A stretch of DNA of 64,000 bases, from assembly GCF_016865485.1 (NCBI RefSeq), contig NZ_AP024452.1, forward strand, positions 3,432,501 through 3,496,500, read 5' to 3'. The notes under the pieces are model-generated. The model was given only the letters and a program-made list of their open reading frames with translations. It did not search any database and was not told the origin of the DNA. Position numbers and translations under genes: made by a program. The DNA comes from Luteitalea sp. TBR-22. GTDB lineage: Bacteria; Acidobacteriota; Vicinamibacteria; Vicinamibacterales; Vicinamibacteraceae. Positions 21,809 through 33,527 of the stretch are shown in pieces. Every line of letters starts with the position of its first letter. The first letter of the stretch is position 1.

Positions 21809-22087
21809 CTACGCCTGCAACTCGCCTTCTTCCTCGTCGTCTTCGTCCTCGAGGTCGTCCTCGTCGTCGGCGTCCTCGTCGTCGAGGTCGTCCTCCTCGT
21901 CGTCGTCCTCGAGGTCCTCGTCGTCTTCATCCTCGTCGTCTTCGTCGTCCTCGTCGTCCTCGACCTCCTCCTCGACATCTTCCTCGGCGAGGGCGAGCAA
22001 CGGGCGATCGGTCGCGTCGAGCGTCCGGTCATCGGCATAGCCGAGAAAATCGAGCGGAATGATGGGCAGGCTGATGGTGTTGGTCAT
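21809..22087 (-). CDS. Very acidic low-complexity small protein
   Basis: A 92-residue protein with a conventional N-terminus (MTNTISLPIIPLDFLGYADD, then 'RTLDATDRPLLALAEE') and a C-terminal half made almost only of Asp and Glu. The DNA is a run of GAC/GAG-type triplets. A GGGAGGAG ribosome site precedes ATG 22087, so translation is plausible. The tail could bind cations or basic proteins, or mimic nucleic acid; I recognise no family. Triplet repeats make its length prone to change. Confidence 0.7.
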   Translation of the reverse strand: MTNTISLPIIPLDFLGYADDRTLDATDRPLLALAEEDVEEEVEDDEDDEDDEDEDDEDLEDDDEEDDLDDEDADDEDDLEDEDDEEEGELQA

Positions 22088-22364
22088 GCGGGGCTCCTCC
22101 CGGAGGCCGAAGGTCACGAACGCGTCACGCTGGTGGGTGGGTTGGTACCGGTCGACAGCGCGCCACCCACGCTACTGCCCCCCATCCTGGTCATCATGTC
22201 TTCTTTTGGCCGTGCACCGCGTCGCGGCGCCGCCCGACCCGTTGCAAGGACGCTGCCGAGCGTCCGTGCCGTCAACGGCGCGCTGGGCGCGGCGTCCACC
22301 GTCACCGAAGCAGCGTGGGACTGCGCAGGGTTGACACGGTTCATGACGCGTGCAGCGCGACGCG

Positions 22365-23171
22365 TCAGTCGCGGGGCGTCAGCAGCATCCGCAAGGCGCG
22401 CGCCTGCCCTTCGAGACTCGGAAAGAGCGACGCGGGACTCACGTTCATGCGCCAGAGGTCGTCGAGTGCCTCGGTGCGCGTCGCGCGCGGCACGGTCAGT
22501 TGCACGATCGCTGGCGCGCCATGGGGAGCGGGCACGGCATCGAGCAGTCCACGGATGGGTCGGCTCACGTCGCCCGGGCAGAGGAAGCAGGCCTGCTGCG
22601 CACTCTGTCTCGGATCGAAGCGCCAGGGCTCGACGGGGAACACGACGGGGATGCAACATCCCGGCGGCGAGACGAGGCGCCGGACCAGGGCGCCGTGCTC
22701 ATGAGTGACCATCCGGGCGGCCTCGTCGGGGGCCAGGCCCCAGTGACCTTCGACGGCGCTGGCGGCCTGCGCGGCGCACGCCCGGGTGTCGATGCACCAG
22801 ATCGCGGCGTCGGTCTCGTCGCCACACTCGGGCTCCTCGAGCGCGAAGAAGGCCGCGACGTACGGCGAGCGCGTCACGTCGAGCAGGCGCGTCGGCGCCC
22901 CGTAGTGCTGCATCAGCGCCATCCACCCGAAGACGTCCTCGTCGGTGAGTTGGAGTTGCGGTGGCAGATGAAGGGCGGCCCGGCGCCTGAAGTGATCGAT
23001 CATGCGCCACTCGTCGGCGGCACGGTCGGCGCTGTCAGCGCGCTCGAGGGCGGTGGCGAGCGGCCACGAGGCTCCGGCATGGCCGCGAAAGACCCACGCG
23101 GGGCCGAACTGCGAGAGGCGCGTTTTCAGGCCGGCCCAGTCGGCGATCGGCTCCCGGCATGCGGACGTCAC
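22365..23171 (-). CDS. FRG-domain protein
   Basis: A 268-residue protein with the FRG signature: 'GPAWVFRGHAGASWPLATAL' near residue 25, then 'LMQHYGAPTRLLDVTRSPYVAAFFAL' with the conserved H-x-G-x-x-T-R-L-L-D segment around residue 90. FRG domains occur alone and in proposed conflict or toxin-like proteins, but the activity is not established. A GTG start at 23171 is used. A strong hairpin lies 41-69 nt upstream in the leader. No toxin, antitoxin or other defence partner is adjacent. Confidence 0.82.
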   Translation of the reverse strand: MTSACREPIADWAGLKTRLSQFGPAWVFRGHAGASWPLATALERADSADRAADEWRMIDHFRRRAALHLPPQLQLTDEDVFGWMALMQHYGAPTRLLDVTRSPYVAAFFALEEPECGDETDAAIWCIDTRACAAQAASAVEGHWGLAPDEAARMVTHEHGALVRRLVSPPGCCIPVVFPVEPWRFDPRQSAQQACFLCPGDVSRPIRGLLDAVPAPHGAPAIVQLTVPRATRTEALDDLWRMNVSPASLFPSLEGQARALRMLLTPRD

Positions 23172-23866: not shown

Positions 23867-25156
23867 ATGACCGACACGCGGCCGTGCCTCCTCCGGACCA
23901 CTGCAGTGGTCGGCGCTGCGCGGGCTGCGGCGCGGAGCGTACGGCGCGTCGGCAGTGTCGTTGGCCTCGTCCTCGTGACGACGTGTGGTGTCGCGCACGG
24001 CCAGGCCGAGGAATCTCGGGCCGCCGAGATCGAACGGGCGCGACGCGCCAAGGGCGAGGCCCTCGCCGAGGCGCCGCCGCCCAACAAGGTGGAGCGGGCC
24101 TTCACGTTCATCGAGCAGGCACGCCTCTTCCAGCGCATCTTCAACCCACCCCGTGGCTGGTTCGCGCAAGTGGGCGGCGTGGGTGAGGGCAACGGCTTCA
24201 CGCTGGGGGGCGGCTACCGGCAGCCGACAGCCCTGGGCGCCCTCACCTTGCGCGGGCTGGGCTCGCTGAGAGAGTCGTACCTGGTGAGCGCCGACTTCTC
24301 GCGCGCCTTCCTGCCGCGCGACGCCGGCGAGGTCGGCCTGACCGTGATGCGCCGCCACGAGGCGGCGCAGCGGTTCTACGGCGCCGGCCCCGACTCCGAG
24401 TTCGACGACCGCAGCAGCTTCGGCCTGTCGGCCACGCAGGTCGAGGGCCATGCCTCGGTGCGGGTGACGCGGTGGCTGACGGGTACGGCGACGGTCGGCT
24501 ACGCGGTTCCGGACCTGGGAGCCTCGTCGGAGGCCTCGCGCGTGCCAGGCACGCAGGAGGCGTTCACCGAGGCGGAGGCGCCGGGCCTGACCTTCCAGCC
24601 GGCGTACGTGACGGCCACCCTCGGCGCGCTGATCGACACACGAGACACCGGCAATCCCCGCCAGGGCGGGCTGTATCTCCTCCAGTTGCGCCGCTTCGAC
24701 GACCAGGACGGCGGCGCGTTCTCCTTCACCGACACCCGCATCGACCTGCAGCAGTTCATCCCGTTCTGGAACCTCAGTCGCGTGCTCGCGCTGCGGGTGC
24801 TCGCCCAGCATGCCGATGGCCTCGGGCAGGCGCAGGTGCCCTTCTACCTGATGCCCACCCTGGGCGGGGCGCGCGGCCTCCGCGGGTACGAGCGCCAGCG
24901 CTTCCGCGACCGCAGCCTGATCCTCGTGTCGGCCGAGTATCGTTACGAGATCAACCCGTTCCTCATGGCGGCGGTCTTCTACGACGCGGGCCAGGTGGCG
25001 CCCGACTGGAGCAACTTCCGCCTGCGCGACTTCCGCGACAACTATGGCGTCGGCTTCCGCTTCGGCTACAGCAACGCCGTCGCCCTGCGCGCCGACCTGG
25101 CGTTCGGCGGCGAGAGCACCGCGCGCCTGATCGTCGGCTTCAGCACGAGTTTCTGA
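23867..25156 (+). CDS. Omp85/BamA-like outer-membrane barrel
   Basis: A 429-residue protein with a signal region (hydrophobic 'VGSVVGLVLVTTCGVAHGQA'), a short helical linker, then about 370 residues of alternating beta strands ending in Phe (FSTSF), typical of outer-membrane barrels. 'GARGLRGYERQRFRD' corresponds to the conserved VRGY/lid-loop motif of the Omp85 surface-antigen family. POTRA domains are missing, so it is more like TamA-barrel or TpsB-less variants. It starts a three-gene run with the next protein 3 bp downstream. Confidence 0.82.
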   Translation: MTDTRPCLLRTTAVVGAARAAARSVRRVGSVVGLVLVTTCGVAHGQAEESRAAEIERARRAKGEALAEAPPPNKVERAFTFIEQARLFQRIFNPPRGWFAQVGGVGEGNGFTLGGGYRQPTALGALTLRGLGSLRESYLVSADFSRAFLPRDAGEVGLTVMRRHEAAQRFYGAGPDSEFDDRSSFGLSATQVEGHASVRVTRWLTGTATVGYAVPDLGASSEASRVPGTQEAFTEAEAPGLTFQPAYVTATLGALIDTRDTGNPRQGGLYLLQLRRFDDQDGGAFSFTDTRIDLQQFIPFWNLSRVLALRVLAQHADGLGQAQVPFYLMPTLGGARGLRGYERQRFRDRSLILVSAEYRYEINPFLMAAVFYDAGQVAPDWSNFRLRDFRDNYGVGFRFGYSNAVALRADLAFGGESTARLIVGFSTSF

Positions 25157-25159
25157 CCG

Positions 25160-26830
25160 ATGTCACGGCCTTCCCCGCCCTCGTTCCTGCGCCGCGTGGC
25201 CGTCCTGGCCCTCGCGGCCGCGCTGGTGGCTGGCGCCACGCGGATCGACGAGCCGCGCACCATCCACTTCCGTGCCGACGATCCCCTCTGGGTGGACGCC
25301 GACATGGTGGTCGACGCCAGCAAGGTCGCACCCCAGGAACTGAGCCAGTCCTACGACTTCCTCGAGAACACCTTCGCCCTCAAGGGCGATCGGCGCGACA
25401 TCCGGGCGCTGAACGTCAACACGCTTGACGAAGTGCCGGACTCCAGCTGGTTCACCAATCGCATCACGCAGCGACCGATCGACGACCTGGCGCTGGCCCA
25501 GGGGCCGAACTCGTTCGAGACGCTGCGCGCCGACGCCTGGACGATCGTCGCCGGGAAGAACACCGGCCTGCAGCCCGGCTTCCGCGCCACCATCACCGGG
25601 GCGAACGACAAGCAGCTCTACCAGATCGAGTTCGATCCGCCCGGGCACCCGCAACTGGCGACCGGTGCCGAGATGATCGGCACGCTGCTCTACCACGCAC
25701 TCGGCTACCACGTCGTCGAGAACTACATCGTCTATGTCGATCCGGCGACGATCACGATTGCGCCCGACGCCACGTACCGCGATCGCGACGGCCGCAAGCA
25801 GCCCTTCACGCGCGAGACGCTCGAGCGCCTGTTCTGGCGCGCCGCCCGCAGTGCCGACGGCACGTACCGCGCCCTGGCCAGTCGCTTCGCCCCGGGCAAG
25901 CCTGCCGGCCAGTTCCGCTACTACGGCACCAGGCACGACGACCCCAACGACATCTACCCGCACGAGCACCGGCGCGAGTTGCGGGCGGCGCGCGTGTTCG
26001 CCGCCTGGGTCAACCACGACGACTCGCGCGCCAACAACACGCTCGACATGATCGAGGGCGATGGCGACCACGCGGCGCTGCGCCACTACATGTTCGACTT
26101 CGGCTCGATCATGGGCAGCGGCACCACCGGTCCGGACACCGCGCGGTCGGGCCGCACGTACCTGATCGACGCGCCGACGGCCTGGCGCGTGCTGCGCACG
26201 TTCGGCCTGTGGGCCCCGGCCTGGGCCCGACGCCACATCGCGCCGTACCATCCGTCGGTCGGCCCCTACACGGCCGACGGGTTCGAGCCGGCGGACTGGA
26301 AGGCCGAGTACCCGAACGCGGCATTCCTCAACATGCGCCCCGACGACGCGTTCTGGGGCGCGCGTCGCGTCGCGGCGTTCACCGACGCACAACTGCGGCT
26401 GCTCGCCGAGCAGGGCCGCTACAGCGATCCGGCGGCGACCGCGCAGGTGGCGCAGGCGCTGATCGGCCGGCGCGACGCGATCGCCCGCCAGTGGCTCACC
26501 GGCGTGACGCCGCTGGTGTCGCCCGTCCTCGTGCAGGGGCGCCTCCGCTTCGCCAACGCCGCGGTCGACGCCGGAGTGTGCGCCCCGCCGTCCCGATACG
26601 TTGTGCAATGGGAGGCCTTCGACAACGCCACCGGCATCCACACGCCGGTCGACGGTCCGGTGAGCGTCGACATCCCGGAGGCCCAGTTGCCGGCGGCGAT
26701 CGCCCAGGAGGCCTTCGTGGTCGCGCGCGTGCACGCGGTCCACCCGCAGTTCCGGCACTGGTCCACGCCGGTCGCGTTCTACTTCCGTCGCCAGGGCGAC
26801 CACTGGACACCCGTGGGTCTCTATCGCTGA
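25160..26830 (+). CDS. Exported protein with kinase-like motifs
   Basis: A 556-residue protein with an N-terminal export signal ('VAVLALAAALVAGATRI'). Residues ~140-320 have an order like the HipA/CotH/PI-kinase fold. A strand 'GFRATITGAND' is followed by E171 in an ATGAEMIG helix. 'NHDDSRANN' (D287-N292/293) resembles a catalytic loop and 'MFDFGS' (D313) a DFG motif. The expected strand Lys appears to be Glu (YQIEF). This is my inference from the pattern; the enzyme activity is unproven. It lies between the Omp85-like gene and a nucleotide-carrier-like gene. Confidence 0.6.
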   Translation: MSRPSPPSFLRRVAVLALAAALVAGATRIDEPRTIHFRADDPLWVDADMVVDASKVAPQELSQSYDFLENTFALKGDRRDIRALNVNTLDEVPDSSWFTNRITQRPIDDLALAQGPNSFETLRADAWTIVAGKNTGLQPGFRATITGANDKQLYQIEFDPPGHPQLATGAEMIGTLLYHALGYHVVENYIVYVDPATITIAPDATYRDRDGRKQPFTRETLERLFWRAARSADGTYRALASRFAPGKPAGQFRYYGTRHDDPNDIYPHEHRRELRAARVFAAWVNHDDSRANNTLDMIEGDGDHAALRHYMFDFGSIMGSGTTGPDTARSGRTYLIDAPTAWRVLRTFGLWAPAWARRHIAPYHPSVGPYTADGFEPADWKAEYPNAAFLNMRPDDAFWGARRVAAFTDAQLRLLAEQGRYSDPAATAQVAQALIGRRDAIARQWLTGVTPLVSPVLVQGRLRFANAAVDAGVCAPPSRYVVQWEAFDNATGIHTPVDGPVSVDIPEAQLPAAIAQEAFVVARVHAVHPQFRHWSTPVAFYFRRQGDHWTPVGLYR

Positions 26831-28209
26831 TGAACGATCCCCGCACCCTCGTCAGCCACCCCGAACTCGAGTCGCAGCAGTCGTTCCCGCACTTCCGGAC
26901 CGTCGGCGAGCCGCCGCGCAACGCGCTGGAACGGGTGCTCTCGGTCTTTGCCGACGTCCGCGCCGGCGAGGGCCTCGGCGTCCTGCTGCTCGCGGTCACG
27001 GTGTTCCTGCTGCTGGCCGGGTACTACCTCCTCAAGACGGCACGCGAGGCGCTCATCCTCACCGAGGGCGGCGCGGAGGTGAAGGCGTACTCGTCGGCGG
27101 CCCAGGCCGTCCTGCTCCTGCTGGTCGTGCCCGCCTACGGCTGGCTGGCGTCGCGGGTCGCGCGCGTGCCGCTCATCGGCCTGTCCAATGCCTTCTTCGC
27201 CGCGACCCTCCTGGTGTTCGCCTCCCTGAGGGCGGCCGGCACGCCCGTCGGCATCGTGTTCTACATCTGGCTCGGCATCTTCAACGTCTTCGTGATCTCC
27301 CAGTTCTGGGCCTTCGCCAACGACGTCTACACCGAGGGTCAGGGCCGGCGCCTGTTCCCCTTCATCGGCGTCGGCAGTTCGCTGGGGGCATGGCTCGGCG
27401 CCGAAGCCGCCGGGGCGCTGGTCACGTACACGACCGCCGATCCCGGCACCCTGATGATCGGCACCGCCGCCCTGCTCGCGGTCTGCTTCGGCCTGATCGT
27501 CGTGGTGAACCGGCGCGAGGTGCAGCGCAGCGACGCCGTCGGCCGGCGGCAGAGCGACGCCCCGATCGAGGGCCGCAACGGCTTTGCCCTGATCGTCGCC
27601 GACCGCTACCTGCTGCTCATCGCGGCGCTGATGGTGCTGCTCAACATCGTCAACACCTCGGGCGAGTTCCTGCTGAGCAAGCTGGTGGTCGCCGATGCGG
27701 CCGCGCACGTCACCGGCGGCGACGTCGGCGCGCGGCAGCGGTACATCGGCGCCTTCTACGGCGCGTTCTTCGGCCGCGTCAACCTGCTCGGCCTGCTGCT
27801 GCAACTGTTCGTCACCTCGCGCCTGCTGCGGGCCATCGGCGTGCGCGGCGCGCTCTTCGTGTTGCCGGTGCTGGCGCTGGTGAACTACTCGGTGATCGCC
27901 GTCGCCCCGGTGCTCGCGGTGGTCGGCGCGCTCAAGGTGCTCGAGAACAGCACCGACTACTCGATCCAGAACACCGTCCGCCAGGCGCTCTTCCTGCCGA
28001 CGACCCGCGAGGCCAAGTACAAGGCCAAGGCCGCGATCGACACGTTCTTCATGCGGCTGGGCGACGTGACGCAGGCCCTGATCGTCCGCGTCGGCACGGG
28101 CATGGGCGCCGGCGTGGCCGCCTTCGCCTGGCTCAACGTGGCTCTGACGGTGGCCTGGCTGGCGTTGGCGGGCCAGATTGCGCGGGAGCATCGGCGCCGG
28201 ACGGTGTGA
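26830..28209 (+). CDS. ATP/ADP-carrier-like (NTT/MFS) transporter
   Basis: A 459-residue protein with about 12 membrane helices. 'GYYLLKTAREALIL', 'QFWAFANDVYTEGQGRRLFPF' and 'ENSTDYSIQNTVRQALFLPTTREAKYKAKAAID' closely fit the pattern of NTT-type nucleotide carriers found in many free-living bacteria. The substrate cannot be read; nucleotide exchange is known for symbiont members only. Its ATG overlaps the previous stop by 1 nt. Its 3' end runs 77 nt into the convergent carrier gene. Confidence 0.8.
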   Translation: MNDPRTLVSHPELESQQSFPHFRTVGEPPRNALERVLSVFADVRAGEGLGVLLLAVTVFLLLAGYYLLKTAREALILTEGGAEVKAYSSAAQAVLLLLVVPAYGWLASRVARVPLIGLSNAFFAATLLVFASLRAAGTPVGIVFYIWLGIFNVFVISQFWAFANDVYTEGQGRRLFPFIGVGSSLGAWLGAEAAGALVTYTTADPGTLMIGTAALLAVCFGLIVVVNRREVQRSDAVGRRQSDAPIEGRNGFALIVADRYLLLIAALMVLLNIVNTSGEFLLSKLVVADAAAHVTGGDVGARQRYIGAFYGAFFGRVNLLGLLLQLFVTSRLLRAIGVRGALFVLPVLALVNYSVIAVAPVLAVVGALKVLENSTDYSIQNTVRQALFLPTTREAKYKAKAAIDTFFMRLGDVTQALIVRVGTGMGAGVAAFAWLNVALTVAWLALAGQIAREHRRRTV

Positions 28210-30373
28210 GCGACGGCGTGCGCGCCAACTGCTCCAGCAGCCCCTCCTGCGAACGCAGCAGCGCCTCGAGGGCCGAGGTCGATCCGGCGGCCGACGCCGC
28301 ACGCCCGACCGAGGCGTCGAGCACCTCCCACAGCCGCGCCCGCACGGGCTCGGGCAGGACACCATTGAGGTACTCGAGAGCCAGCCCGCGCAACATCGGA
28401 TCCTCGCTGTGGACGACGCGGAAGGCCACCTTCACGGGCTCACGCGGGAGCACGGTGACCAGCAGCGAGAACACGTGCTCGAGGGCGCGGTTGGCCCGGT
28501 CGCGCAGGTGCTCGTCGAGGTACAGGACCGCGTCGGCGTTGTCGAACTGATCGAGCAGGCGATGGCCGTTCCACACCGGCCTGGCCACCGACAACTCGCG
28601 CTCGACCACCTGGTGGATGCGGGCCGCATCGACCTTCAGCCCCGGCTCGGCCACCAGCACCCGGTCCATGGCGCGACTGCACTGGTAGCGCACCTCGAAC
28701 CGGCTGTCCGACAGGCCGAGCACCAACCCGTCGAGCGTCCGTTGCGTCGGGGCCCCGATGAGCACCCGCGGGATCCGGCGCCGCACGGCGAACTCGGTGC
28801 CGCCGTCGAGCAGCGCGTCGACGAGCAGGCCCGAGTGGCGGTCCACCACGTGCTCGAGTGCCCTCCGCACCAGCGGCGTCACGTCGTCCCACGCCAGCAA
28901 CTGGATGGTCTGCGCGACGTGCATGGCCTCGAACCGCGGCGCCGACTCGAGCGCCGCGGACACGACGGTCCGATCACCCGATCGGAGTTGGCGCAGCAGG
29001 TCGAGCGGCTCGTCGAGCAGCACCTGCACCGGCACGTGCGGACGGTGCGCCGGCTGCACGTCCTCGAGCACGGGCGCCGAAGCCACCACCGGGATCTCGA
29101 GGCTGGCCAGCGTGGGGCCGCCGAAATCGCCGAAGCCTCCCACCACGTCCTGGTCCTCGGCGTGGTCGACGAGACGCCGCTCGATGCCCTGCAGGTACAG
29201 GCCGTCGAGCCGCTGCCCGATCCAGATGCTGGCCGTCGCCATCAGGATCATCACGCCGAGCATCTCGTTGACGACGAAGAGCGGGCCGGTCAGCAGCAGG
29301 AGCTGCACGACGCCGGCCCCCAGGGCATCACCGGCGCGATCGCAGGCGACGTCGAGGAACGTCTTCACGCGCCGCTTCTCGGCCGGTGGCATCGAGGAGA
29401 ACAGCAGCTCGTAGCCACTCCGGAACAACGACCCGCGCAGCACGGATTCGGCGCCGCGGGCCAGCGCGAAGGTCGGCGTCGCCGGGAAGAAGAGCGACAG
29501 CACGGCGCCGACGCCGACCCCCACCGGCAGCAACGTCACCGACCGCCCGACGCCGATCTGCTTCTGCAGGGGGGCGGCCACGAAGGCCTGCACCACGAAC
29601 GTCAGGACCTGCACGACGGTGTAGAAGACGGCGAAGAACTGCAGCAGCTGTCCCCCGCTGTACTCGGCCGCGGCGCGCGACTTGAGCAGGTAGTCGACGA
29701 TGGCCGCACTGCCCGTCCCGAGCACGACGAGCAGGGCGATCTCCTTGACCTGCGGGGACGCGCTGAACACGCGGCGGCCGCCGAAGGTCGCCTCGGGCTC
29801 GCGGCGCCGACCGCCCCCGACCATGCCCGCGCACAGGGGCCACAAGCCGATGGCGCACGCCAGGTGCAGTCCCGCCAGCAGGAGGAGGGAGTCGGCCGGC
29901 GTCGCCCAGGCGCCGATGCGCTCGACCGCCAGGCCGCCCGACACGCCTCCCAGGGAACCGGCCGTGGCGATCCGCGCGAACTGCTCGCGCGCCGAGTGCG
30001 GATCGAACAGCTCGCTGGTCAGCGACCAGAACCCCGACAGCAGCAGCGCCCCGAAGGCCGCCACGTGCACGTAGATGAGCGCCGGGACGATCGGCCCCGG
30101 CCCGTAGGCGACCCACTCGGCGGCGTGAGCCAGCGCGCTGAGCAGGAACCCGGCCGGCACCAGCCGCTTCGGGCTCGCCCAGGCCAGCAGGTGGGCGTAC
30201 ACGGGCACGGCGAGCACCGACAGCACGGCCGCGAGGATCACCATGCGCGGCAGGTCGGTAGCCGGCAGCGCGCCGAGGAACAGCGCGTCGCGCACCGCCT
30301 TGCCGGCGACCTGGTGCGCGAGCATGACGGCCGACACCGTCATGGCCATGCGCGAGAGGGAGCGGATGTCCAC
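28133..30373 (-). CDS. NTT-like carrier with HEAT-like C-terminal domain
   Basis: A 746-residue protein. Residues 1-390 form ~12 membrane helices of the same carrier type as the convergent gene ('VRDALFLGALPATDLPRM', 'FWSLTSELFDPHSAREQFAR'). Residues ~400-746 are a soluble helical region resembling HEAT repeats ('SALESAPRFEAMHVAQTIQL', 'LEHVVDRHSGLLVDALLDGG'). A GTG at 30373 is chosen; the longer frame is shadow. It lies 8 bp after the Ser/Thr kinase gene, so the two are probably an operon. It overlaps the convergent carrier by 77 nt. Confidence 0.78.
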   Translation of the reverse strand: MDIRSLSRMAMTVSAVMLAHQVAGKAVRDALFLGALPATDLPRMVILAAVLSVLAVPVYAHLLAWASPKRLVPAGFLLSALAHAAEWVAYGPGPIVPALIYVHVAAFGALLLSGFWSLTSELFDPHSAREQFARIATAGSLGGVSGGLAVERIGAWATPADSLLLLAGLHLACAIGLWPLCAGMVGGGRRREPEATFGGRRVFSASPQVKEIALLVVLGTGSAAIVDYLLKSRAAAEYSGGQLLQFFAVFYTVVQVLTFVVQAFVAAPLQKQIGVGRSVTLLPVGVGVGAVLSLFFPATPTFALARGAESVLRGSLFRSGYELLFSSMPPAEKRRVKTFLDVACDRAGDALGAGVVQLLLLTGPLFVVNEMLGVMILMATASIWIGQRLDGLYLQGIERRLVDHAEDQDVVGGFGDFGGPTLASLEIPVVASAPVLEDVQPAHRPHVPVQVLLDEPLDLLRQLRSGDRTVVSAALESAPRFEAMHVAQTIQLLAWDDVTPLVRRALEHVVDRHSGLLVDALLDGGTEFAVRRRIPRVLIGAPTQRTLDGLVLGLSDSRFEVRYQCSRAMDRVLVAEPGLKVDAARIHQVVERELSVARPVWNGHRLLDQFDNADAVLYLDEHLRDRANRALEHVFSLLVTVLPREPVKVAFRVVHSEDPMLRGLALEYLNGVLPEPVRARLWEVLDASVGRAASAAGSTSALEALLRSQEGLLEQLARTPSLTPSGADAPAQSGPPTPARPPSEPR

Positions 30374-30381
30374 GAGCGGCG

Positions 30382-31995
30382 TCAGCGTACCAGGACGGGC
30401 GAGGGCTGTGCTTGCGGGTCGACGGCCGGAATGCGGTGCGAGGACGAGGGCGGCAGGTGCGTGCGCCACCAGCCGTCGGCATCCTCGTCGCACCACTGGT
30501 CGGCTTCCGCGCACGCGTCGAGCAACCGGATCAGCGCCCGGGCGCTGGTCGGCCTGTCGCCCGGCTTCTTGGCCAGGCACTGCATGACGACAGCCTCGAG
30601 GTCGGCAGCGATCGGCAGCTCGGTGCGCGCCGAGGGCGGCTCCGGCGACTTCTGCACGTGGGCCACGGCCATCGCCGTCGGGCTGGTCTCGTTGAAGACC
30701 AGGGTGCCGGTCAACAGGAAGTAGGCGACGCAGCCGAGCGTGTACAGGTCGGCCCGACCGTCGATCCGCTCGTCGCCCATCGCGATCTCCGGCGCGATGT
30801 AGCCGGGCGTGCCGGCCGACACGCCGTCCATCGTCAGGTGCGTGAGGTCCTCGGCTTGCGTCGGCTTGACCAGCCCGAAATCGAGCACCTTCACGAAGTC
30901 GTGCTGCAGGGCCACCTTGCAGGCCATGATGTTGGAGGGCTTGAGGTCACGGTGCACCAGTCCACGGGCGTGCGCCTCCTCGAGCGACAGGCACACCTGC
31001 CGCAGCAGGTGGATGACGCGCGAGCCGGGCTGGGGTCCGAACACCTGCACCAGCTTCTGCAGGCTGACGCCGTCGAGCAGTTCCATGACGAAGTAGAAGT
31101 GCCCCTCGCGCGAGGTCCCGAAGTCGTAGAGGTACACGGTGTGCGGGCTCTGCAGGTCGGCCGTGACCCGGGCTTCGCGCTCGAAGCGGCGCACCGCGAC
31201 GTCGGCCTGCCTGGCCGTCGCGCCGTGCATCAGCTCGGGCCTGATGATCTTGATGGCAGCCTCGCGCGCCAGCATCTTGTGCCGTGCCCGCCAGACCTCC
31301 CCCATGCCGCCCTTGCCGATCAGCGACTCGAGGTAATAGCTGCCGAGGTCCTGCGCCTTGCGTGCCGCCGCCTCCATGTGCTCGACGCGACGCGAGATGA
31401 AGTAGGCCAGCAGCGCCGCGAAGTACGGCACGAAGATCCAGGCCAGCAGGCGGTTGAGCGGCAGGGGCGCCAGGTCGAGACGGGCCTGGTTGATGAGGTA
31501 GGCGATGGGCCACGTCGATGCCGCCAGCAGCGCCACCGACAGCGTGACCAGCGGCGTGTTGGGCACCAGGAAGCCGACGATGACGATCCAGATGGCCAGG
31601 TTGGAGCCGCCCCGCACGAACCCGTCTGAGAACGGCAGGCTCGTCTCCAGCGTCGAGATCGAGAAGGCCACGACCAGTTCGAAGACCATGCCCAGCTGCA
31701 GCACGGTGGCCGCCGGCACGACACGGTAGCGCTGCAGGGCGATGATCCCCGCGGCGCACAACACGTTTGCCAGCAGCGCCAGGGCATTGACCGGATCGCG
31801 CTGGGCCTCGACGATTTCGGGCTGGATCAGCCGCTGGATGACGAAGGCGCCGACGGTGGTCACCGCCGCCAGCAGCGACACCCAGCACAGCCGTGTCGCA
31901 GCCTGATTCACCAGGCGCGGCGAGAGGGCCGCCTCGGACGAGACGTGCGGGGAGGTCCCCTGACCGAGCGTGGTGGCGCGGACGACGTCCTGCAT
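30382..31995 (-). CDS. Six-TM receptor-like Ser/Thr protein kinase
   Basis: A 537-residue protein. An N-terminal membrane module (about residues 35-200, six helices) is followed by a Hanks-type kinase. It has the glycine loop IGKGGMGEVW, VAIK-type Lys 'AAIKII', catalytic loop HRDLKPSNI, DFG in VLDFGLVKP, and APE in 'GTPGYIAPEIAM'. Unlike PknB, the membrane part precedes the kinase and no PASTA repeats are present. It could sense membrane state and phosphorylate cytosolic targets, perhaps including the adjacent carrier's soluble domain. Confidence 0.92.
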   Translation of the reverse strand: MQDVVRATTLGQGTSPHVSSEAALSPRLVNQAATRLCWVSLLAAVTTVGAFVIQRLIQPEIVEAQRDPVNALALLANVLCAAGIIALQRYRVVPAATVLQLGMVFELVVAFSISTLETSLPFSDGFVRGGSNLAIWIVIVGFLVPNTPLVTLSVALLAASTWPIAYLINQARLDLAPLPLNRLLAWIFVPYFAALLAYFISRRVEHMEAAARKAQDLGSYYLESLIGKGGMGEVWRARHKMLAREAAIKIIRPELMHGATARQADVAVRRFEREARVTADLQSPHTVYLYDFGTSREGHFYFVMELLDGVSLQKLVQVFGPQPGSRVIHLLRQVCLSLEEAHARGLVHRDLKPSNIMACKVALQHDFVKVLDFGLVKPTQAEDLTHLTMDGVSAGTPGYIAPEIAMGDERIDGRADLYTLGCVAYFLLTGTLVFNETSPTAMAVAHVQKSPEPPSARTELPIAADLEAVVMQCLAKKPGDRPTSARALIRLLDACAEADQWCDEDADGWWRTHLPPSSSHRIPAVDPQAQPSPVLVR

Positions 31996-32389: not shown

Positions 32390-32548
32390 TCAGCCGAGCA
32401 CGAAGAGTCCGAAGACGAAAATGCCGAGGAGCGCGAGGAAGAGCGCCAGCCACGCCAGCGCGATCGTCCGCTCCTCGGCCGGCTTGGGTTCACTGATGCC
32501 AATCGTCATGTGAATGAGCCTGACGAGGCGCACGAGCGGGTCGAGCAT
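32390..32548 (-). CDS. Small single-TM protein
   Basis: A 52-residue protein whose last 25 residues are one membrane helix (ALAWLALFLALLGIFVFGLF). AAGGA lies 5 nt before ATG 32548; an inner ATG at 32509 would give 39 residues. It is divergent from the META-type lipoprotein gene. No family was recognised. Confidence 0.55.
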   Translation of the reverse strand: MLDPLVRLVRLIHMTIGISEPKPAEERTIALAWLALFLALLGIFVFGLFVLG

Positions 32549-32600
32549 CGCGTCCTTGAATAACACGAACCGAGACGCGCGACCGCGAGGAGTCGACAGG

Positions 32601-33527
32601 ATGCCGTGGATGATGACCGGGGGGGCGCGGGCGGCGATGTTGCTGGTGGCGACTGGCCTGCTCGCCGGATGCGGGGCCAGGCAGGCTGGGGTGAACACCG
32701 GCCCCCCGGCCGCCATGACCGCCGGCGCCGTGGCCTCGGCCACCATTCTCGGCGCCTTCGACACGCCGATCACGCTGGTCGACGGACGGTACGAAGGGGC
32801 GCCGTACGCGCCGGGAGGGGCCTCCAGGCCCACGGCCACGCTGCTCGCGCCGCTGACCGCCATCGGCGACCTCGATGACGCGCCCGGTGCCGACGCGGCT
32901 GCCGTGATCGCCACCAACGAGGGCGGCAACGGCGAGCGCGTCGTGCTGACCGTCGTCGGCCTGCGCGGCGGCAAGGCCACCAGCGTCGGTTCCACCCTGG
33001 TCGGCGACCGCACCAGGATCCGCGACCTGCGCCTGGCTGGCCGCGACATCGTCCTCGAGGTCGTCGAGATCGGCCCGAAGGACGCGGCGTGTTGCGCCAC
33101 GCAGCTGGCCACCAGGACCTACCGCTTGCAGGGCGGCCGACTGGGCCTGCAGTCGTCCGTGGTCACTGGCACGCTCTCGGTCGCCACCCTGGGCGGCGCC
33201 GCGTGGACCGCCGTCGAGATCGACGGCACGCCCGTGCCGGCCGGCATCACGGCGCCGACCCTGACGTACGAGAATGGGCGGATCTCTGGCACATCCGGCT
33301 GCAACCGCTACACCGGCGCGCTGACCGAGTCGACACCCGGCACCGTGAAGGTCGGGCCGACCGCCGGCACCCGCCGCCTGTGCGCCGAGGAGGCCGCCAA
33401 CGCCACCGAGACCCGCTACCTCACCGCGCTCCAGGCCGCGACCCGCTACACGTTCCTGGCAGGACGCCTCCACCTGTCAGGCGGCGACGCCAGCGTGACG
33501 CACACGATCCTGTTCAGGAAGAATTGA
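32601..33527 (+). CDS. META-domain lipoprotein
   Basis: A 308-residue protein with a lipoprotein signal ending LLAGC (residue ~22). An N-terminal region 'GDLDDAPGADAAAVIATNEGG...ERVVLTVVGLRG' resembles beta-rich solute or inhibitor domains. A C-terminal META/HslJ domain follows ('TYENGRISGTSGCNRYTGAL', 'VGPTAGTRRLC' with paired Cys). META proteins are envelope or secreted proteins linked to novobiocin resistance and motility in E. coli, with unclear chemistry. GAGGAG precedes ATG 32601. Confidence 0.82.
   Translation: MPWMMTGGARAAMLLVATGLLAGCGARQAGVNTGPPAAMTAGAVASATILGAFDTPITLVDGRYEGAPYAPGGASRPTATLLAPLTAIGDLDDAPGADAAAVIATNEGGNGERVVLTVVGLRGGKATSVGSTLVGDRTRIRDLRLAGRDIVLEVVEIGPKDAACCATQLATRTYRLQGGRLGLQSSVVTGTLSVATLGGAAWTAVEIDGTPVPAGITAPTLTYENGRISGTSGCNRYTGALTESTPGTVKVGPTAGTRRLCAEEAANATETRYLTALQAATRYTFLAGRLHLSGGDASVTHTILFRKN

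Follow-up and report, generated by a model that had tools for sequence, protein, structure and literature searches.

The module described here is, on balance, probably a conserved cell-envelope system, with an exported kinase-like protein of the Fam20/CotH/HipA type and a POTRA-less Omp85 β-barrel at its core. Pairing of the barrel with the kinase-fold protein, which we refer to as K556, is the tightest bond in the module and defines its core unit. Nucleotide transporter (NTT) carriers and exported phosphatases recur beside this unit. The initial annotation mentions neither this bond, nor the recurring phosphatases, nor the lack of the usual β3 lysine in the window's K556. Here, we describe the locus, the evidence that bears on the function of each component, and a possible mechanism.

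The five genes listed in the initial annotation are all present in the window (i.e., the whole 64-kb stretch of DNA that was analysed), and their arrangement is as proposed there (Table 1). The genes for the barrel, K556 and the first carrier, NTT1, form a tight run on the plus strand: the first two are separated by 3 bp, and the ATG of NTT1 overlaps the K556 stop codon (TGATG). Facing this run is the minus-strand pair, in which the gene for a six-TM Ser/Thr kinase lies directly upstream of that for a second, HEAT-containing carrier, NTT2. The two operons are convergent and overlap by 77 bp. Throughout, residue counts refer to 118 members of the K556 family, neighbour counts to 110 loci, and NTT-proximity counts to 58 loci with full flanks.

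Table 1. Coordinates and supporting evidence for genes and features of the module in the 64-kb window.
Feature	Position	Strand	Evidence or note
POTRA-less Omp85 β-barrel, 429 aa, signal-like N-terminal segment	23867..25156	+	PF01103 E 1.5e-18, residues 137-414
K556, exported kinase-fold protein, 556 aa	25160..26830	+	AlphaFold2 and VIA
K556 signal-peptide-like N-terminus, residues 1 to ~27	25160..25240	+	Hydrophobic segment 9-27; signal-like N-termini in most relatives
K556 kinase domain, residues ~120-448	25517..26503	+	Solved kinases align to model residues 92-420
K556 Lys133, glycine-rich-loop region	25556..25558	+	Lys in 110/118 members
K556 Glu157, β3 lysine column	25628..25630	+	Lys in 85/118 members
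K556 Asp288, putative catalytic aspartate	26021..26023	+	Asp in 113/118
K556 Asn293, putative metal ligand (Asp+5, protein-kinase-like)	26036..26038	+	Asn in 115/118
K556 Asp313, DFG-like motif	26096..26098	+	Asp in 115/118
K556 C-terminal FnIII-like domain	26504..26800	+	Model residues 421-519 match FnIII domains, VIA Z ~8
NTT1, single-domain NTT/TLC-family carrier, 459 aa	26830..28209	+	PF03219 61.4 bits
NTT2, NTT domain and C-terminal HEAT repeats	28133..30349	-	Start ATG 30349 or GTG 30373; profile matches
NTT2 HEAT domain, ~residues 445-680	28310..29017	-	pLDDT ~90 over most; HEAT profile matches
Hanks-type Ser/Thr kinase; kinase domain preceded by six N-terminal TM segments	30382..31995	-	PF00069 E 1.5e-39

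The upstream protein had been annotated as an Omp85-like barrel, and its score against the Omp85 barrel profile PF01103 (67.9 bits, cut-off 24) bears this out. An Omp85 barrel gene lies directly upstream of the K556 gene, on the same strand, in 105 of the 110 loci. Two of the apparent exceptions, L069 and L148, are in fact NTT1-barrel reading frames upstream of K556; a tandem copy, a broken frame and an open-frame artefact account for the other three. The genome itself has four K556-family genes and four barrel genes (E 1e-33 or better), each adjoining one of the other, one to one. The two proteins also show a mirror correlation of 0.67 over 102 pairs against a permutation maximum of 0.15. Across the 110 loci, no neighbour other than the barrel is near-obligate for K556. 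An Omp85 barrel is likewise tied to an enzyme in PlpD (patatin-Omp85); in the module, the enzyme would be a separate kinase-fold protein encoded by the next gene. Searches with Pfam and NCBIfam found no POTRA domain in the barrel protein, which may resemble the Omp85 "noNterm" class, i.e., barrels without N-terminal domains (PMC4104836), though ~90 residues precede its barrel.

By sequence, K556 is a member of an unnamed, predicted exported family across Acidobacteriota. The best 80 matches of a contig search all appear to be acidobacterial, and a search of plasmids gave no K556. Comparison of the K556 sequence with Pfam, NCBIfam, PHROGs and the PDB returned nothing useful; the protein has no Pfam or NCBIfam family, and the HipA-family profiles (PF07804/PF20613) do not match the copy in the window. 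Its relationship to kinases is visible only through structure and through a family-wide Pfam scan, in which 11 of the 78 relatives weakly match PF20613 (HipA_2), at E 7e-4 at best. Structure prediction, which the initial annotation had proposed as a check, gave a two-lobed kinase fold (AlphaFold2; pLDDT 95.1, pTM 0.94). The top solved matches to this model by VIA are atypical kinases, well above unrelated rows, with Z scores of 14.7 for CtkA, 13.2 for Fam20, 12.2 for CotH, 11.8 for PI4KII and 10 for HipA. Foldseek gave no match under E 0.001, with HipA/HipT/CtkA kinases closest; a monobody fusion, whose match presumably covers the FnIII part only, heads its list, and the VIA comparison decided the fold. 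The modelled K556 fold is of the Fam20/CotH/HipA kinase type.

Neighbourhood analysis, a second check named in the initial annotation, showed that linkage to the carriers, as to the barrel, is conserved and recurrent. An NTT gene lies within 4.5 kb of K556 in 25 of the 58 full-flank loci; the remaining 33 have no nearby NTT, and a linked carrier is therefore not required. NTT genes are present in 45/50 genomes with K556 versus 50/247 others. NTT1 placements near K556 vary (upstream, downstream, divergent or fused), the fused cases being L069 and L148, where NTT1 and the barrel share one open frame (847 and 837 aa, respectively). The initial annotation had stated that a predicted structure without a kinase fold, or carriers with neither nucleotide-binding residues nor conserved linkage, would count against it; given the kinase fold and the conserved, recurrent linkage, neither was found in full.

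NTT1 is a clear family member, with a TLC profile score (PF03219) of 61.4 bits against a cut-off of 21 and profile matches to solved NTTs at E 4e-19 and 1.5e-14. Two of the four charged residues that matter in plant NTT1 (K155, E245, E385 and the ATP-associated K527; PMC4256464, PMC3306366) are replaced in it. Plant E245 corresponds to Gly149 and K527 to Asp412; E385 is shifted (near Glu279), and the counterpart of K155 is ambiguous (possibly Lys85). There is a possibility, not far short of even, that the NTTs of the module move cargo other than ATP (NAD, another nucleotide, S-adenosylmethionine or a phosphorylated metabolite), or that NTT1 and K556 share only regulation. In addition to the residue replacements, some NTT1 paralogues in this genome adjoin other genes (SDF/SBP, PLD, SDR and PAP2), and the NTT family includes Npt1, which carries NAD, and an S-adenosylmethionine carrier (references cited by PMC5381601). 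However, ThNTT1 and ThNTT3 differ from the plant residues at three of these four sites, yet both are ATP and GTP transporters (PMC4256464), so the losses in NTT1 are weak evidence against ATP transport. A direct link is favoured by the fusion of NTT1 to the barrel upstream of K556.

Exported phosphatases of two unrelated families are encoded directly downstream of K556 in 20 of the 110 loci (PAP2 in 15, metallophosphatase in 5), with 13 changes of this linkage on the K556 tree. The whole-genome background is 6 PAP2 and 11 metallophosphatase matches; neither of these neighbour families occurs within the 64-kb window. Together with the NTT carriers, these predicted exported phosphatases support extracytoplasmic phospho-chemistry. 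Two further neighbour clusters recur: cNMP-binding/histidine-kinase proteins at 13 loci, and regulators, sigma-54 types among them, at 8. Members of each vary in architecture and position, and we therefore treat both clusters as generic.

The phosphatases also bear on the nature of the target. K556 could be an envelope lipid or glycan kinase rather than a protein kinase, acting on an outer-membrane lipid, a part of LPS or a surface glycan, with ATP or a lipid pyrophosphate as donor and PAP2-type phosphatases as a counterweight. PAP2 phosphatases, the commonest exported phosphatases adjoining K556, have lipid phosphates as their best-known substrates; K556 has PI4KII as one of its best structural matches; and the fold is known to phosphorylate non-proteins, as in Fam20B and the PI kinases. 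However, the protein kinases Fam20C, CotH and CtkA match K556 as well or better, the purple-acid-phosphatase-like neighbours are not lipid-specific, and lipid-synthesis genes are not among the recurrent neighbours of the family. We regard a lipid or glycan target as possible but rather improbable.

The initial annotation described K556 as an exported protein with kinase-like motifs, and residue conservation upholds this description. K556 has a single hydrophobic N-terminal segment, and both its "catalytic loop" (HDDSRANN, with Asp288 and Asn293) and its "DFG" motif (DFGS, with Asp313) are conserved in the family. Most members share only ~35-50% overall identity, yet these three residues are each kept in >95% of members (113-115/118), and the set is intact in all 39 NTT1-linked members. 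The β3 Lys/αC Glu pair is not found in the K556 of the window, which, like its close relatives, has Glu157 at the β3 lysine column; the β3 Lys is missing in 33/118 members. Lys133 is more conserved and is kept in the window's copy. The catalytic residues are lost in a few paralogues: L039 (in this genome), L043 and L049. Some copies may be inactive, given these losses and the Glu at the β3 column. It is unlikely, though, that K556 is in general a pseudokinase or scaffold that serves the barrel as cargo or as its soluble partner, in a system akin to two-partner secretion. The missing β3 Lys, the near-obligate tie to the barrel, and the retention of the barrel by L039 and L049 despite their lost catalytic residues fit such a role. 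However, it does not account for the conservation of Asp288, Asn293 and Asp313 in a divergent family, for the loss of Lys133 together with these residues in L039, L043 and L049 (a few other members also lack Lys133), or for the recurrent phosphatases.

Least probable by far is that the NTT association reflects neighbourhood drift in GC-rich acidobacterial genomes: more than half of the full-flank loci have no nearby NTT and NTT genes are common in the phylum (95/297 genomes), but the observed 25/58 compares with ~1% expected by chance (six NTT matches over 6.47 Mb), which rejects chance proximity on numbers, and NTT1 linkage changes up to 22 times on the K556 tree (FastTree), with differing arrangements.

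We therefore return to an envelope system built on K556 and the barrel, for which phosphotransfer outside the cytoplasm seems somewhat probable. The barrel would hold K556 at the outer membrane, or pass it through, and K556 would transfer phosphate to a protein, lipid or glycan target in the envelope or at the surface. The phosphatases of related loci would reverse this phosphorylation or recycle by-products. More tentatively, NTT1 may move a nucleotide, e.g., ATP out versus ADP in, providing a periplasmic donor for K556, and the cytoplasmic Ser/Thr kinase and the HEAT domain may tune NTT2. Supply of ATP to K556 through the carriers is a doubtful proposal at present, and a dedicated envelope phosphorylation system that combines NTT-exported ATP, a barrel-docked Fam20-like K556 and resetting phosphatases is more speculative still. 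The periplasm of Gram-negative bacteria is usually considered free of ATP, and kinases are therefore not expected there. The K556 family, with its barrels, NTTs and phosphatases, would make ATP-driven phosphorylation outside the bacterial cytoplasm directly testable.

K556 can be compared with several known kinases. By sequence profile (HipA_2) and Foldseek, it is nearest to HipA, HipT and CtkA. HipA and HipT act as toxins in the cytoplasm and have HipB as antitoxin; K556, by contrast, has a signal-like N-terminus, and no HipB-like partner recurs among its neighbours. Fam20C and Fam20A of the Golgi have a kinase fold like that of K556 (VIA Z 13.2-12.5) and are secreted, with extracytoplasmic action; the eukaryotic secretory lumen, too, needs its ATP supplied. 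If the proposal is correct, the envelope phosphorylation system would parallel, in bacteria, the kinase system of the Golgi. Identity to these proteins is ~11-13% over the alignment, and K556 differs in being bacterial, paired with a barrel, equipped with an extra FnIII domain and, as a kinase, putative. The Fam20 system also includes an inactive sister, Fam20A (PMC7948968). CotH of the Bacillus spore coat, which is related to Fam20C (PMC12189002, PMC7821199), has an atypical bacterial kinase fold, as does K556. However, CotH belongs to Gram-positive spores, whereas the setting of K556 is a Gram-negative envelope that also contains a barrel and carriers; and the metal-binding DFG motif that CotH is said to lack (PMC12189002) is present in K556.

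Both carrier types of the module, single-domain NTT and NTT-HEAT fusion, are described for free-living bacteria in the available text of PMC5381601, which gives their function as unknown and in which we found no mention of in-frame NTT1-barrel frames or of any association with an exported kinase and a barrel. The module offers a role for these proteins. The open-access papers searched hold no description of the module; since the search covered open-access literature only, this is no proof of novelty.

NTT2 matches weakly as a single sequence; as a profile, it matches plant NTT1 (E 6.1e-15) and an alpha-Rep HEAT protein (E 1.9e-20), consistent with an NTT domain followed by HEAT repeats. Its model has a mean pLDDT of 61, with a poor membrane part and a HEAT part mostly at ~90. 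The Ser/Thr kinase contains the Hanks-type motifs HRDLKPSN and DFG, and its kinase domain (residues 219-486) is shared with PknB-like Hanks kinases (PknB match, E 7e-50). It differs from these in that six hydrophobic, putative TM segments precede the kinase domain and its gene is coupled to that of an NTT-HEAT protein.

The window (C1:3432501-3496500; C1 is the contig of an acidobacterial genome that is complete at 6.47 Mb) contains five genes arranged as two convergent operons. One encodes an Omp85 barrel, an exported protein that we refer to as K556, and NTT1, a single-domain NTT/TLC-family carrier; the other encodes a six-TM Ser/Thr kinase (STK) and NTT2-HEAT, an NTT carrier with HEAT repeats. 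The 3' ends of the NTT1 and NTT2 genes overlap by 77 bp. Third-position GC is 0.91-0.96 for each of the five genes, matching expectation for real genes in this genome. Among the flanking frames, the one with a very acidic tail may be a genuine acidic protein or a low-complexity artefact.

Coordinates of the module, its flanking genes and related loci
Feature	Location	Strand	Remark
Short open frame	window 21809-22117	-	long Asp/Glu run at end
FRG-domain protein	window 22365-23171	-	PF08867, E 2e-23; just ahead of barrel gene, opposite strand
Omp85 barrel	window 23867-25156	+	
K556	window 25160-26830	+	556 aa, exported
NTT1	window 26830-28209	+	start codon overlaps K556 stop
NTT2-HEAT	window 28133 to about 30349	-	follows STK on same strand
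STK	window 30382-31995	-	six TM
META-domain protein	window 32514-33527	+	C-terminal PF03724, E 1.3e-19; past STK gene
K556 paralogue	L039:5137-6861 (C1:417822-419339)		catalytic residues absent, barrel retained
NTT1-barrel frame	L069:2799-5339		847 aa
NTT1-barrel frame	L148:6312-8822		837 aa
NTT1 paralogue cluster	L176 (C1:5231872-5235832)		no K556

K556 has a confidently predicted kinase fold. Searches with the single sequence found no family match in Pfam, NCBIfam or PDB. An AlphaFold2 model built with 78 aligned relatives (pLDDT 95.1, pTM 0.94) was compared with solved structures using the aligner VIA; the top ranks were CtkA (Z 14.7), Fam20 proteins (13.2-12.5) and CotH (12.2), followed by PI4KII (11.8), HipT (10.7) and HipA (10). 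The initial annotation had proposed a kinase-like protein here, and the model bears this out. Foldseek gave weaker matches than VIA, with the best kinase rows at E about 4e-3. Pfam HipA_2 is touched by 11 of the 78 relatives (best E 7e-4), and curated profiles do not place K556 in HipA. The N-terminus is signal-like, and the C-terminal part aligns structurally as an FnIII domain.

Among 118 K556 family members, Asp288 is conserved in 113, Asn293 in 115 and the DFG-like Asp313 in 115; Lys133, which lies in the region of the glycine-rich loop, is conserved in 110. Judged by sequence, the family appears to be under selection for catalysis. The beta-3 lysine column (157) holds Lys in 85 members, Glu in 18, and Ser, Gln or another residue in the remainder. 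The window copy lacks this lysine and, because it has Glu, cannot be termed a canonical kinase; Lys133 may take over the role held elsewhere by the beta-3 lysine. The Asp/Asn/Asp set and Lys133 are jointly lost in three members (at loci L039, L043 and L049), and the first of these, an own-genome paralogue, is likely a pseudokinase.

Of 297 Acidobacteriota genomes sampled, 50 contain relatives of K556. The relatives span several classes and, among the matches listed, include Bryobacterales/Terriglobia records, Vicinamibacteria and one Aminicenantes record. In 105 of the 110 loci with sufficient sequence, the barrel gene immediately precedes K556 on the same strand. The five exceptions can all be accounted for: two by NTT1-barrel reading frames, the others by a tandem copy, a broken frame and an open-frame artefact. 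The own genome has four K556 genes, each adjoining one of its four POTRA-less barrels (E 1e-33 or better). Barrel and kinase distances correlate (Spearman 0.67 for 102 pairs, against at most 0.15 in 500 permutations), as would also be expected from co-inheritance alone.

Clustering of all neighbours at K556 loci revealed recurrent phosphatases that the initial annotation had not mentioned. An exported PAP2 phosphatase with motifs KX6RP, PSGH and SRX5HX3D lies directly downstream of K556 in 15/110 loci, and exported calcineurin-like metallophosphatases do so in five others, four of these proteins resembling purple acid phosphatases by motifs. The presence of either one changes state 13 times on the K556 tree. 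With 6 PAP2 and 11 metallophosphatase matches in the whole own genome, adjacency by chance would be expected at well under 1% by our arithmetic, assuming about 5,500 genes. The window itself contains no phosphatase of these families. The occurrence of unrelated exported phosphatases at the same place is good circumstantial evidence that K556 takes part in phosphate chemistry outside the cytoplasm. K556 would be located at or beyond the outer membrane together with its barrel, phosphorylating an envelope or surface target; if active, its mode of work would resemble that of Fam20/CotH-type kinases. The target could be a protein, lipid or glycan, a lipid being kept in play by the PAP2 neighbours and the similarity to PI4KII. 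Each part of the module is of a known kind (a PKL-fold kinase, Omp85, NTT, NTT-HEAT or a Hanks kinase); we found no description of the barrel-K556 pair or the whole module in the open-access literature searched.

Linkage of the carriers to this module recurs across Acidobacteriota. An NTT gene lies within 4.5 kb in 25 of the 58 K556 loci whose flanks extend for 4.5 kb or more on each side, versus about 1% expected by chance (our arithmetic, given that the 6.47 Mb genome has six NTT matches). An NTT1-type gene is found in 22, an NTT2-type gene in 12 and STK in 16. On a FastTree tree of K556, state changes scored over 75 rows number 22 for NTT1 linkage, 8 for NTT2 and 7 for STK, these being upper bounds on independent events, counted on the topology alone. 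NTT1 may be downstream, upstream or divergent, or share a frame with the barrel; in L069 and L148, K556 is immediately preceded by this single frame, in which the NTT1 and barrel parts meet at a signal-peptide-like segment. A TLC-family gene occurs in 45/50 genomes with K556 versus 50/247 without, as raw counts that ignore kinship.

Profile alignment of NTT1 to two solved NTTs places Gly149 and Asp412 at plant E245 and K527, and Asn275-Glu279 near plant E385; plant K155 falls near Lys85 in one of the two alignments. K155 and K527 of plant NTT1 have been linked with the binding of ADP and ATP (PMC3306366). However, ThNTT1 and ThNTT3 carry ATP and GTP despite changes at three of the four positions (PMC4256464), so nucleotide transport by NTT1 can be neither affirmed nor excluded from its residues. 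NTT-HEAT proteins have been described from free-living bacteria, with their function given as unknown (PMC5381601). Tentatively, the carriers might supply nucleotide, the second being regulated from the cytoplasm by STK and the HEAT domain.

NTT genes also cluster elsewhere. In the own genome, L176 brings together an NTT1 paralogue, a PAP2 phosphatase and a gene that fuses an SDF symporter to a solute-binding domain, all without K556; the same fusion type is near K556 and NTT1 in L063, L073, L118 and L133. Four further loci from several genomes (L157, L158, L161 and L163) have two or three clustered NTT or NTT-HEAT genes, with no K556 in the stretch examined.
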